A program made the position numbers and the translations under genes. A stretch of DNA of 49,806 nt from Blastopirellula marina (GTDB taxonomy: Bacteria > Planctomycetota > Planctomycetia > Pirellulales > Thermoguttaceae), in assembly GCA_020721965.1 (NCBI GenBank), contig DYLS01000022.1:1-49806 (forward strand). Direction: 5' to 3'. This document shows positions 23,095 through 27,325 of this stretch, one piece after another. The notes beneath the pieces were generated by a model, which searched no databases, had not been told where the DNA came from, and saw only the letters and a program-made list of their open reading frames with translations. The first letter of the stretch is position 1; each line of letters begins with the position of its first letter.

Positions 23095-23997
23095 TCAGGT
23101 CCGCATCGCCGCGCGGAGTTTGGCGCTGCGGCTCCGCGGATTCGAAGCGACCTCTTGTTCACTCGGCGTCACCGGTTTTTTCGTAAGGGGAGAGTAGCGA
23201 GGATCGGTGCGGAACGCCTCCTTGACGATCCGGTCCTCAAGGGAATGAAAACTGATTACCACAACTCGTCCGCCGGGACGCACGATTTCGGGGAAACGTT
23301 GCAAGCCAGATTGCAGGGCCGCCAGCTCATCGTTGACCGCGATGCGCAGGGCCTGAAATGTTCGCGTGGCCGAGTCGATGCCTTTGAAACGCGGTCGGGG
23401 GACCACTCGATGGATGATGCGCGCCAACTCCCGAGCACTTTTGATCTCTTGAAATCGACGCGATTCCACGATGGCGCGGGCAATACGCCGGGCAAAACGT
23501 TCTTCACCAAGCTCGTGAATCACATCTGCCAAGGCCCTCTCGTTCAGACGATTCACCAATCGCCACGCCGGTTCTCCCTCTTGCGGATTGAACCGCATGT
23601 CCAGGAGACCGTCCGAAAAGAAACTGAATCCACGACTGGAGTCCGATAGCTGATCGCTGGACATGCCAAGGTCCAATAGGATGCCATCCACGCACTCCCA
23701 GCCCAATTGGTCGAGAATCTCCGGCAAGTCCCGAAAATTGCCTTGTATCAAATGAACCGCAAAACTGGCGAAACGAAGTCTGGCCCGGGATATCGCGTCG
23801 GGGTCTCGATCCAAGGCCAGGATTTTTCCACCGGGCAACACCCGATGAAGAAGGGCATCGGCGTGCCCCCCCCCGCCCAATGTGCCATCCACGATGATCT
23901 GCCCCGGACGCGGCGACAGCCACGCCAGGACTTCCTGGAACATCACCGGGACGTGGCACGTGGCTTGCGGTTTCGGTGCGTGCAAGTCGTTTTCCAT
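23095..23997 (-). CDS. rsmH: 16S rRNA (cytosine(1402)-N4)-methyltransferase RsmH
   Basis: This is a 300-residue S-adenosylmethionine-dependent enzyme that methylates C1402 of 16S rRNA in the decoding centre (formerly MraW). It begins with the family's His-Val-Pro-Val-Met near residue 15. It carries motif I Asp-Gly-Thr-Leu-Gly-Gly-Gly-Gly-His (37-45), an acidic strand end Leu-Ala-Leu-Asp-Arg-Asp, the catalytic-region Leu-Leu-Asp-Leu-Gly-Met-Ser-Ser, and the C-terminal Ser-Phe-His-Ser-Leu-Glu-Asp-Arg. In most bacteria rsmH follows mraZ directly in the dcw cluster. Here mraZ is 817 bases upstream, with a promoter, structured RNA and terminator between, and no ftsL or penicillin-binding-protein gene follows. 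No clear ribosome site precedes ATG 23997. Confidence 0.95.
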   Translation of the reverse strand: MENDLHAPKPQATCHVPVMFQEVLAWLSPRPGQIIVDGTLGGGGHADALLHRVLPGGKILALDRDPDAISRARLRFASFAVHLIQGNFRDLPEILDQLGWECVDGILLDLGMSSDQLSDSSRGFSFFSDGLLDMRFNPQEGEPAWRLVNRLNERALADVIHELGEERFARRIARAIVESRRFQEIKSARELARIIHRVVPRPRFKGIDSATRTFQALRIAVNDELAALQSGLQRFPEIVRPGGRVVVISFHSLEDRIVKEAFRTDPRYSPLTKKPVTPSEQEVASNPRSRSAKLRAAMRT

Positions 23998-24111
23998 GAA
24001 AAGTTGGCGCGCATTGGGGCGCGGTCCATTTCACACGTGAGCTTCCCACAGGACCAGCACGTCGCATGCCGGAACGCAGCACATCGGCAACCGGACAACC
24101 GGCGGCCGTTC

Positions 24112-24163
24112 AAAAAAAAGACCCACCCTCGAACACATCCTGCTGTTCATGCGAGGGTGGGCC
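24112..24163 (-). terminator. strong intrinsic terminator between mraZ and rsmH
   Basis: On the - strand a 10-bp stem (arms at 24152-24161 and 24122-24131, CCCACCCTCG with CGAGGGTGGG) is followed by eight T residues (24112-24119). It ends 115 bases upstream of the rsmH start codon. It either ends an independent RNA or acts as an attenuator for rsmH. Confidence 0.85.
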
Positions 24164-24518
24164 TCTGAACCCCACGCTCCCATGCGTTCCTGGGGTTCAC
24201 GTGCCGCCCATGACCACTTCCCTGTGGTCGATTGGTGAGGATTGCACCGGTACGTGGCAACCGGCATGGAACGTCGATCGGTGGCCGCTTATCGACGTTC
24301 GCATCCACACACAAGGCGACATGCACGGACGGACGTCACATCGTATTCAATCACCGTCAGACCGCGGGGTCATCGCAGATTCGAAACCTGGGCTGGCCCG
24401 TCGTCACGAACCGGTCATACGGCCATAACCCGTACGGAAGCTCAGCCGTTGTCACGGCCGGTCCATTTACCATCTTTGCAACTTGCAATCGCACAGTCAA
24501 ACAGTTCCGCAAAGGGAG
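24112..24518 (-). ncRNA. candidate structured RNA of about 407 nt (independent ncRNA or rsmH leader)
   Basis: A promoter-like pair starts the segment and an intrinsic terminator ends it. Between them there is a chain of stem-loops visible by eye. Arms are 24454-24458/24445-24449, 24430-24436/24416-24422 (one G-U), 24291-24300/24269-24278 (10 bp), 24260-24264/24247-24251, 24224-24229/24212-24217, and 24192-24199/24166-24173 with an inner ACGC/GCGT pair. I checked for RNase P RNA, tmRNA, 6S, SRP RNA and T-box signatures and found none. The known mraW leader motif of Actinobacteria is a different context. Short frames inside have no ribosome sites. Confidence 0.5.
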
Positions 24519-24524
24519 ACAACA

Positions 24525-24553
24525 CTTATATGGCATATAGCTACCCCTAACAA
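24525..24553 (-). promoter_or_regulatory. sigma70-type promoter for the mraZ-rsmH intergenic RNA
   Basis: TTGTTA (24548-24553) and TATAAG (24525-24530) on the - strand are separated by 17 bases. The predicted start is near 24518. Confidence 0.55.
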
Positions 24554-24642
24554 TAGGTATCATTACCTACCCCGGCATGGAGTCCTCGATTCTTGCCAGT
24601 TCGCGGAAAAGCCTGTTCCAAGCAGCACCAATGCTTAGCCGC

Positions 24643-24797
24643 TCCGAAGCTCCTCAATACTTCCGAAGTTCCTCAATACTACAGCGCAAAGTCCACCTGA
24701 TTGCATGATGTGCCCCTCATACGTTGCGGGGCACTACGTCCAATCAGCACAGCGTGTTGGGGCACGCAAGCAGCCCTGTGCTAGAAAGTGCTGTAAA
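24643..24797 (-). repeat. dispersed repeat family 1, copy C (inverted) with tandem end
   Basis: The reverse complement of 24675-24797 aligns with copies A and B: GCACAGGGCTG, CCCCAACAC, then GGCACATCATGCAATCA and GGTGGACTT. As in copy B the end carries a tandem duplication, here 19 bp: 24643-24661 and 24662-24680 (TCCGAAGCTCCTCAATACT with one change). The element sits between the mraZ stop and the promoter of the structured RNA. Confidence 0.6.
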
Positions 24798-24814
24798 GTT
24801 AATGTGATATAACG

Positions 24815-25270
24815 TTAATCTGTGTGGCCTGACCGCAGTGCCAATTCAGCCACGCGCTCGTAGGCAGCCCGATTATCTTGCCAAAACTTCTCCCAACGTT
24901 GCTTACCCCAGATCTCGATGTGATCCATTGCGCCGACCACCATGGTTTCCGATTCGATTCCAGCTTCTTGCAAGAGCGATGCTGGTAACCGAATGCGGCC
25001 TTGGTGGTCAATTTCGCACTCCTCGCTTAGCGAGAAAAAAAGCCGCGTAAAAGTCCGCACTTCCGCCTGTGTTGGGGAAGCTAGCCTCACGCGGCCTGCA
25101 AAGCTCTGAAACTCCTGTTCGGTGTAAACTGCCAAGCATCCATCCAGCCCTAAGGTCACGAATACCTTGACCCCCGGTTGACAGCCCAGGGCCTCACGGT
25201 GCGGTTTAGGGAGAGCGAGCCGCGATTTGGAATCCAGAGATCGACAAAACCGGCCTGTCAGGACCGCCAT
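24815..25270 (-). CDS. mraZ: transcriptional regulator MraZ
   Basis: This is a 151-residue protein with two SpoVT/AbrB-like DNA-binding halves. Each has the Asp-X-Lys/Gln-X-Arg-Leu/Ile-X-Leu-Pro core (Asp-Ser-Lys-Ser-Arg-Leu-Ala-Leu-Pro near residue 13 and Asp-His-Gln-Gly-Arg-Ile-Arg-Leu-Pro near residue 88). MraZ forms ring-shaped oligomers that bind direct TGGGN repeats spaced by ten bases and usually regulates its own promoter and the division/cell-wall cluster. A matching operator lies directly upstream (25276-25300). The usual next gene, rsmH, is separated by 817 bases containing its own promoter, so mraZ may no longer control it through read-through. Confidence 0.95.
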   Translation of the reverse strand: MAVLTGRFCRSLDSKSRLALPKPHREALGCQPGVKVFVTLGLDGCLAVYTEQEFQSFAGRVRLASPTQAEVRTFTRLFFSLSEECEIDHQGRIRLPASLLQEAGIESETMVVGAMDHIEIWGKQRWEKFWQDNRAAYERVAELALRSGHTD

Positions 25271-25593: not shown

Positions 25594-26763
25594 TTAGCAG
25601 CCAGCCCTGGCTGCTGCCTGTTCCGCCCAAAGCTGCTCGTATTCCTTGACCGTGCAATCCCATCCGAAGCACCTTTGGACGCGTGTTCGATTGCGCTCCC
25701 CCAATTCCCGCGTGAGAGTCGGATTGGAAAGGAGCCGCACAATCGCTCGGCTTAGCGCCGCGCTATCGCCCGGTCTCACGATTTGCAGCGGCTCTTCATC
25801 GCCCAGGACCTCGGAAACCCCTTCCACCGCGGTTACCACAACGGGGCACCCCATGGCCATCGCCTCGAGCAATGCGTTGGGCATCCCTTCCCAGCGCGAT
25901 GGCAACACGAAGACGTCGGTCTCCCGCAAGATCTCGCCGACATTTTCGCAATAGCCAGCCCAGACAATACGATCGCTTATCCCCAGCCTTATGCTCAGAT
26001 CCATGAGCCATTCTCGTTGCGGCCCATCACCAACGAGGTACAGCACTACATCCGGGAAACTTCGCAGCCATTGGGCCGCGCTGTGCAGCAGCAGGTCCAC
26101 CCCTTTCTGCCGTGCCAATCTGCCGACAAAAGTCACTCGCCGTCTCGACCGAGGTGCAAGCTTCTCGTCGTTTTCCGAGGTTTCCGACCGATTCCCACCT
26201 TGCACCCCGGCACAGCCAGTCACCGCTGGGACGCCCACGTCCACCCCATTGGGAATCACAACGATTTTGTCGGCGGGCAGCAGGCCGCGGCTTACGGAGA
26301 AATCGGCCACAGCCCGGCTCACGCAAACGTAACGATCCACCCAACCCGATGTAGCGGCATCCAACAAAAGGTGCCAGTTCGCTTGGCGTTCCGCCACCCG
26401 AATTCCCGATATCACGGCAGGCACTCCGGCGATTCGTGCTACCATTCTTCCCAGCAAATTCGCGTGGAACAAAAAGGTTTGCACAACATGCGGACGGTCT
26501 CGCAGGATGCAGCGAAGCCATTTCATCAGGGCTTTGGGAGAATCCCACACCTTGCAACCATCCAAAAAACGGACGGGAATACCGTGCTCCCGAATTCGCT
26601 TGACCAAACGATCATCCTTCCGTGGGTATGGTGCTAATGAAACGACCGATAGCCGAAACCGTTGGGAGTCGACGCGGCAGGCCAGTTCCGTGAGGCATTT
26701 CTCCGCCCCCCCGACCTCCAGGTCCGTGATGCCCAGCATGACCCGGATTGGATCACGTTCCAT
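25594..26763 (-). CDS. GT4-family glycosyltransferase
   Basis: This is a 389-residue protein with a GT-B fold of the glycosyltransferase family 4 type. I prefer ATG 26763, preceded by GGAAAAGG, because the residues that follow (Ile-Arg-Val-Met-Leu-Gly-Ile-Thr-Asp-Leu-Glu-Val-Gly-Gly-Ala-Glu) are the classic start of the family. The longer open frame to 27072 is Arg/Gly-rich and not protein-like. The donor-binding half contains Val-Thr-Phe-Val-Gly-Arg-Leu-Ala-Arg-Gln-Lys-Gly and the Glu-X7-Glu motif in Glu-Gly-Met-Pro-Asn-Ala-Leu-Leu-Glu-Ala. The enzyme transfers a sugar from an activated donor, probably to a cell-surface glycan. Acceptor and donor are unknown, and no polysaccharide cluster adjoins it. 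Confidence 0.88.
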   Translation of the reverse strand: MERDPIRVMLGITDLEVGGAEKCLTELACRVDSQRFRLSVVSLAPYPRKDDRLVKRIREHGIPVRFLDGCKVWDSPKALMKWLRCILRDRPHVVQTFLFHANLLGRMVARIAGVPAVISGIRVAERQANWHLLLDAATSGWVDRYVCVSRAVADFSVSRGLLPADKIVVIPNGVDVGVPAVTGCAGVQGGNRSETSENDEKLAPRSRRRVTFVGRLARQKGVDLLLHSAAQWLRSFPDVVLYLVGDGPQREWLMDLSIRLGISDRIVWAGYCENVGEILRETDVFVLPSRWEGMPNALLEAMAMGCPVVVTAVEGVSEVLGDEEPLQIVRPGDSAALSRAIVRLLSNPTLTRELGERNRTRVQRCFGWDCTVKEYEQLWAEQAAARAGC

Positions 26764-27325
26764 GCTTTCAACCTTTTCCTGATTTCGCATGACTCGCGTC
26801 GAACTCTCATCGCCGCCGCACATCGGTTCCAGGCAAGTCGCGACAGACGGCCCCATTCCCCCGCTTCCCCTGCTTCTGATTTTAGCAGACCCCGTTTGAC
26901 TCAGATTGCACGTCACGCCGTGGCCGGTTGCCTTCGCGAGGCCATCACGGGACTTGTGGCATATCCAGACCGCAGGCGTGCTTCCGAGGCCCCCCCGGTT
27001 ACGACTTTGCCCCTTCCTTCCGGCCACCGGGCATAGCAGCTCCATACGCCGCAATGATGCCGCCGACCGCACGATCCTCGCATAGACGGAAAGGCCAACG
27101 AAACGTAGAATCGGGGTTTTGACCTGATTCGCAGACCCTCAGGCGATTAAGAAAATCCTGACCGCGGCTCCCAGGAATTGGCGGCGAGAGTATCCGCTGG
27201 CATCAGCGCGTGCGGTTCACCAGCGTGCGGGCCATCAGGTCGATTCGCAGTGCTATGCACCCTGTCGTGAACACATTTTACTTCAATCCGATTTTCCGAA
27301 TCCGCACTCCATCGGCCGGATCCGC
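26764..27325. other. divergent 560-base gap, no gene recognised
   Basis: This lies between the glycosyltransferase and queA, which diverge. An open frame extends the glycosyltransferase upstream to 27072, but its composition is unlike protein. I see no hairpin terminator, repeat or convincing promoter pair. Confidence 0.4.

Follow-up and report, generated by a model that had tools for sequence, protein, structure and literature searches.

The long gap between mraZ and rsmH in Blastopirellula marina carries a member of a conserved family of structured RNAs, and we consider it probable that this family is a small RNA gene of the Pirellulales that titrates CsrA. We read the RNA in this way because the ANGGA hexaloop of its terminator hairpin matches the published CsrA/RsmE site and because csrA was found in all genomes searched. 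The starting point was the window, a stretch of 49,806 nt that spans one whole contig of a 4.95-Mb assembly, in which an earlier note, made from the letters alone, had placed a hairpin-rich RNA of ~407 nt with its own promoter and terminator.

On the minus strand of the window, the genes run in the order group 1 glycosyltransferase (25594..27072), mraZ (24815..25270; PF02381, 98.2 bits), a gap of 817 bp, and rsmH, also named mraW (23095..23997; PF01795, 317.7 bits), and the two flanking genes had thus been named correctly. A search with ARAGORN for tRNA and tmRNA genes was negative throughout the window. The promoter-like string TTGTTA-17-TATAAG (24525..24553) is present on the minus strand as described, with TTGTTA at 24553-24548 and TATAAG at 24530-24525. 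However, its reading as a promoter of the RNA is unproven and did not hold up: it matches 9 of 12 consensus bases, a consensus scan that demands the final T and expects 0.5 matches in shuffles lists none, and no counterpart was noticed upstream of the cores of relatives inspected. The part of the gap just past mraZ has two further features, a 19-nt tandem duplication (24643-24680, 95% identical) and, past the mraZ stop codon and outside the conserved RNA, an imperfect inverted repeat with 23-nt arms (24697-24747, 78%).

Apart from the window itself, a DNA search of the region against 60 genomes gave nothing but short chance matches, and conservation was therefore sought by way of the flanking genes. 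Many planctomycete mraZ-rsmH gaps can be aligned to one another along as much as ~230 nt that ends in a terminator-like hairpin; the gap of the window gave just one 20-nt match in this gap-to-gap comparison, and the string GGCCAC[CA] is present in 27 of the 28 planctomycete gaps. A covariance model (R1) was built from an alignment of 14 relatives (A2), with the window left out and the consensus structure set by hand. In A2, 87% of cells are paired and 39 of the 65 pairs changed on both sides, compared with a mean of 22.4 pairs in the shuffled control and at most 22 in the slid one. In the window, R1 found a single match at 24114-24321 on the minus strand, with 91.3 bits and an E-value of 2.2e-20, a figure that the tool itself describes as rough. 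A second model built with the window included (R2) scored the window copy at 115.4 bits. In an alignment of 36 sequences including the window (A4), paired cells reached 88.8% and 63 of the 65 pairs changed on both sides (shuffled mean 42.4, slid at most 43), counts that lean towards R1 because the alignment was fitted to it. In stem P1, 10 of 10 pairs changed on both sides within the family. The covariance analysis that had been proposed as a check thus revealed a conserved structure with strong covariation across relatives. As a control, R2 was run over 74 rsmH loci, 73 not labelled Planctomycetota plus L106, and gave one match (24.8 bits, E 0.003), which indicates that matches near 25 bits are noise. 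Loops were compared in a third alignment (A5), whose 56 rows come from 60 sources (L106, L087, L093 and L094 gave no match); two weak rows in it, L086 at 26.9 bits and L104 at 34.8 bits, lie near the noise of the control. A4 includes the truncated copy L026, which was not among the sources of A5.

The hairpin-rich element is real, and its conserved part is 24112-24335 on the minus strand, about 224 nt in place of the ~407 nt first claimed. This core folds with a z-score of -4.50, with 0 of 200 shuffles as good, compared with an ordinary -0.94 for the 5' stretch 24336-24518 (28 of 200 shuffles as good). The density of stems, which had been called unusual, is so for 24112-24522 taken as a whole (z -2.71, 0 of 100 shuffles as good), but the excess is confined to 24112-24335. 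Neither the promoter-like string nor the first ~180 nt of the claimed element folds better than shuffled sequence, and for neither was a counterpart found in relatives.

In overall fold, a closing stem (P0) encloses a domain made of P1, with P2 and P3, and P4, and the hairpins P5 and P6 follow, all on the minus strand. The 5' box CGTCCGTCCGTG (24324..24335) precedes the stems; in 33 of 52 members, CGTCCG is found no more than 30 nt before the core, and the 45 nt further out contain it in 0 of 52. In the model alignment, P0 has its 5' arm at 24316..24320 and its 3' arm at 24203-24207. RNAalifold on a plain MAFFT alignment pairs the 5' UCGC with GCGG, not GCGAA, and as the two alternatives pair in 62 and 61 of 70 cells, the 3' arm given for P0 is provisional. 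P1 (24234..24311, ends approximate) is a multibranch stem around P2 and P3. The P2 hairpin (24269..24300) contains the perfect 10-bp stem that had been noticed (24269-24278 / 24291-24300) and the loop GGCCACC at 24280-24286; GGCCAC, on a covarying stem, recurs in 53 of the 56 members of A5, and L039, which is without it, is absent from A2 and A4 and present in A5. P3 (24246..24265) was placed by the R2 match and the fold, and in the window it fits the model poorly in places. P4 (24212..24229), found in both the minimum-free-energy and centroid folds, is GACCAC-AGGGAA-GUGGUC, a C-G-closed hexaloop of the form ANGGAN. P5 (24166..24199) has nine perfect pairs (24166-24174 / 24191-24199) and two GGA in its loop. 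P6 (24119..24164) is the terminator hairpin, with arms at 24119-24131 and 24152-24164 that are 92% complementary and an 8-nt loop GCAGGAUG, which holds AGGA without the N. The run of eight U past it (24112..24119, A on the plus strand) makes it an intrinsic terminator, as had been described, and ends 114 nt before the rsmH start at 23997, a distance earlier counted as 115. The terminator scan, which allows loops of 3-8 only, lists none in the region. Across the family, TTTT occurs at the RNA 3' end in 34 of 52 members, compared with 617 of 10200 random 22-mers.

R1 matches 33 of 60 genomes, and R2 matches 71 of the 196 genomes of the Pirellulales under strict filters, 69 of them with one match, leaving 125 with no copy detected in this way. 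Under laxer filters, R2 matches 25 of 38 relatives, including G002, a genome of the window's genus in which R1 under strict filters and inspection by eye upstream of rsmH had found no copy. A sample of the phylum yielded matches in 4 of 294 genomes, each belonging to the Pirellulales; since the filters were strict and few candidates were scored per genome, absence outside the order is provisional. A copy is also carried by L107 (Planctomicrobium piriforme, 71.2 bits).

The earlier remark that the two genes usually almost adjoin is true of other phyla, where 60 of 67 loci have gaps of at most 63 nt and the other seven gaps of 145-778 nt, but it fails for all 28 planctomycete genomes with neighbouring mraZ and rsmH (one locus per genome kept of 48 rows), whose gaps, the window's included, measure 288 to 817 nt to the aligned rsmH start. 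Among the 33 copies found by R1, a tally that leaves out a second, weak match in G007 (E 0.005), 20 lie between mraZ and rsmH, six beside mraZ only, five beside rsmH only and two beside neither (G037 and G030). Three of the mraZ-only copies (G006, G019 and G050) lie close to the end of a contig, where an assembly break may account for the missing rsmH; in the other three (G040, G045 and G025), rsmH lies well inside another contig. In G021, the match (L026 1354-1503) runs into rsmH and is without P5 and P6, and this copy is a truncated or fused form. In G002, the copy found by R2 (2377943-2378151, plus strand) is far from rsmH. The copy of Lacipirellula limnantheis (NZ_CP036339.1), as computed from L103, occupies complement 2741409-2741588. 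Both G002 and G037 have no mraZ at the place, and there the RNA is preceded by a glycosyltransferase with 43% identity to that of the window, which suggests that the site is ancestral and that mraZ was lost from it. The same region of G002 (L214 679-1490) has ~800 nt of unassigned sequence between the glycosyltransferase and the RNA, and its rsmH (L023) is preceded by genes that by eye resemble those of microcompartment shells instead of by mraZ. In two other loci, c-di-GMP-I-GGC riboswitches (RF03167) lie downstream of the rsmH locus (L102 7582-7674 and L103 7637-7729). Because the RNA is kept where mraZ, rsmH or both are absent from the place, it is best seen as an independent gene, not the leader of rsmH.

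The distance from the mraZ stop to the core is 17 to 196 nt in 25 relatives and ~490 nt, the longest, in the window. In four of these relatives (L074, L043, L056 and L071), the core starts 17-20 nt past the stop, which leaves no room for an intervening promoter and makes a transcript shared with mraZ likely; at its longer spacing, the window could differ in promoter use.

The evidence that points to CsrA lies in the loops. In PMC4005645, the high-affinity site of CsrA/RsmE is an ANGGAX hexaloop set directly on a stem, with N and X variable, and PMC7652899 likewise describes a hexaloop of this type on a stem for RsmE. In A5, where the fit to a model that already contained 35 of the rows favours the consensus loop, the P6 loop holds ANGGA in 50 of 56 members and is a C-G-closed ANGGAN hexaloop, N being free, in 46. 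Among the 51 six-base P6 loops, the first position is A in 49, the second is 17 A, 16 C, 13 T and 5 G, the third and fourth are G in 51 and 50, the fifth is A in 51, and the sixth is free; C-G closes the loop in 51 of 56 members, and covariation is seen in the stem pairs beneath. The P4 loop holds ANGGA in 34 and GGA in 46 of 56 members, and the loops of P2, P3 and P5 hold ANGGA in 0, 1 and 0 of 56. By comparison, ANGGAN occurs in 8 of 795 other C-G-closed hexaloop hairpins of planctomycete loci, and at least two of these eight (L213 and L104) are family members that were not on the exclusion list. The mean number of ANGGA per RNA is 1.93, versus 0.69 in shuffles, with one or two in 43 of 56 members, two or more in 38 and none in one. 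The family therefore combines GGA in hairpin loops with the high-affinity ANGGAN form on a stem. A pre-filter for Csr/Rsm RNAs given in PMC5568370 asks for two or more ANGGA and then for poly-U and a terminator; at least two are present in 38 of 56 members and one in the window copy, and 34 of 52 members have TTTT at the 3' end. P6 is atypical in the window, with AGGA in an 8-nt loop, and in its genus-mate G002, with GGGAAA, and both keep AGGGA in P4. The window copy has one ANGGA (in P4), besides the AGGA of P6 and the two GGA of the P5 loop; its best candidate CsrA-type site is AGGGAA of P4, with P6 a weaker variant.

The presumed partner is present throughout. csrA (PF02599) was found in all 60 Pirellulales genomes searched (G000-G059), and because it is in every one of them, its co-occurrence with the RNA does not discriminate. 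The number of csrA matches per genome ranges from 1 to 15, a multiplicity that is striking in itself, and is four in the window's genome (G000). Three of these four were compared; all are PF02599, with invariant L4 and R44, residues that we take to contact RNA. When one of the CsrA proteins of this genome was compared with solved structures, the matches were to chains of CsrA and its relatives, among them 2jpp and 2mf0-2mfh, which are presumably RsmE-RNA complexes. fliW was found in 27 of 60 genomes and in 6 of the 37 of the window's family; it was not found in the other 31, the window's genome included, nor in any of the four genomes of the genus. Many genomes have both the RNA and fliW, and 11 of the 37 family genomes, G001 and G003 of the window's genus among them, have csrA with neither RNA nor fliW found.

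Rfam contains families of the CsrB, CsrC, RsmY and RsmZ type, and there was no covariance match to these, to mraW RNA (RF01746) or to 6S RNA. At gathering thresholds, the window gave no match and 20 loci gave none over the RNA. When the search was relaxed to E 10 over 23950-24860, just mir-557 appeared, at E 3; at E 2, eight members gave MIR169_6 outside the RNA (L061) and narK with a 10-nt overlap at the RNA end (L214), both below gathering. The Rfam scan that had been proposed thus leaves the RNA without a known family and, together with the covarying structure, supports the option of an undescribed noncoding RNA; the other option first considered, an attenuated rsmH leader, is not supported, as the RNA persists where rsmH lies elsewhere. 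A list of 2017 reportedly holds 224 candidate RNAs. Searches of open-licence papers on Planctomycetes with CsrA and small RNAs, on mraZ with noncoding RNA, and on Csr small RNAs with FliW brought up no description of such an RNA. The mraW RNA motif, which a table of PMC2864571 gives as a motif of Actinomycetales named after mraW (rsmH), differs in that our RNA belongs to another phylum, has no match to RF01746 and lies away from rsmH in some genomes. The same table lists a candidate motif, Rhodopirellula-1, without an Rfam number, for Proteobacteria and Planctomycetes; our family may be this motif, but our matches in the phylum sample (4 of 294) are to Pirellulales only.

In the mechanism that we favour, the transcript would arise from the mraZ transcript or a nearby promoter and stop at its own terminator. 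The folded core would display the CsrA-type hairpins P4 and P6 and, in the window, also the GGA of the P5 loop, and these hairpins would capture CsrA dimers, which would then be unavailable to mRNAs. The small number of sites speaks against titration, with one or two ANGGA in 43 of 56 members and one in the window; RsmZ has 8 GGA motifs and CsrB has 22, according to PMC4005645 and PMC7652899, respectively. Moreover, the near-invariant GGCCAC loop is unaccounted for by CsrA and may serve a second partner, for example an RNA target, a protein or a kissing contact.

These two points could be reconciled if CsrA were a partner that is not titrated, with the RNA using the GGCCAC loop or the 5' box CGUCCGUCC to base-pair with mRNAs, and CsrA at P4 and P6 stabilizing or presenting it. 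Neither the GGCCAC loop (53/56) nor the 5' box (33/52) is needed for titration, and ANGGA sites number only one or two in 43 of 56 members. However, the invariance of GGCCAC would also be expected of a site for a protein or of a tertiary contact within the RNA, and we regard this scenario as unlikely, if the strongest of the alternatives. It would also be conceivable that the RNA is a CsrA-bound, processed tail of the mraZ mRNA that sets its stability, as the 26 copies beside mraZ share its strand and four of 25 relatives have the core 17-20 nt past its stop, but five copies with rsmH only and two with neither gene among 33, plus that of G002, persist without mraZ, which renders such a role quite improbable.

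Still less credit is due to the idea of a divergent Pirellulales 6S RNA, or another housekeeping RNA, whose GGA loops serve something besides CsrA. A single match in 69 of the 71 genomes with the RNA is what such a gene would show, but 125 of 196 genomes of the order have no detected copy, and no Rfam match to 6S RNA emerged in the window at E 10 or in eight members at E 2, where only unrelated chance matches appeared. 6S RNA is a rod with a central bubble, and the RNA described here is multibranched with a terminator. For Planctomycetes, PMC5673643 states that no 6S RNA was detected in Thermogutta terrifontis, a member of the Thermoguttaceae (Pirellulales), and refers to reports that Pirellula staleyi and Rhodopirellula baltica lack it, a vacancy that our RNA might fill; all in all, we find the idea very improbable. 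A leader or attenuator of rsmH, finally, is hardly credible. The terminator stands 114 nt before rsmH in the window and rsmH follows the RNA in 25 of 33 genomes, 20 with the RNA between the genes and five with rsmH only, but the spacing between terminator and rsmH is highly variable, and the RNA persists where rsmH is on another contig (G040, G045, G025) or far away (G037, G002).

As far as its anatomy tells, the RNA would act like RsmZ or CsrB, yet it fits no Rfam family. It shares with RsmZ, RsmY, RsmX, CsrB and CsrC hairpins tipped with A(N)GGA and closed by C-G (for RsmZ, in PMC4005645), an intrinsic terminator, an intergenic gene and a csrA gene in the genome. Unlike them, it has no match in Rfam, fewer sites (43 of 56 members have one or two ANGGA), a multibranch core that is conserved, with the GGCCAC loop and CGUCCG 5' box, and a site in the terminator hairpin, and it belongs to a different phylum and in most genomes to a place tied to mraZ and rsmH.

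Csr small RNAs are widespread in Gammaproteobacteria, and FliW is the antagonist in some other bacteria, according to PMC7652899 and PMC4682653; the latter proposes FliW as a CsrA antagonist of Planctomycetes among others. FliW and our RNA are therefore both candidate CsrA antagonists in this phylum, but FliW is a protein. We put forward, as a possibility for which the case is not quite even, that the RNA is the first planctomycete CsrA antagonist of the Csr/Rsm RNA type, with an origin separate from the gammaproteobacterial RNAs, a CsrA site in its own terminator hairpin and a CsrA-independent GGCCAC loop, and that it is the main check on the 1 to 15 CsrA copies in the window's family, where fliW is found in 6 of 37 genomes. 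If this is true, RNA control of CsrA would extend to a phylum for which searches of the open-licence literature brought up no described Csr RNA, and there would be a handle on how 1 to 15 csrA matches per genome are governed. The RNA may also be the reason that the Pirellulales keep mraZ and rsmH apart.
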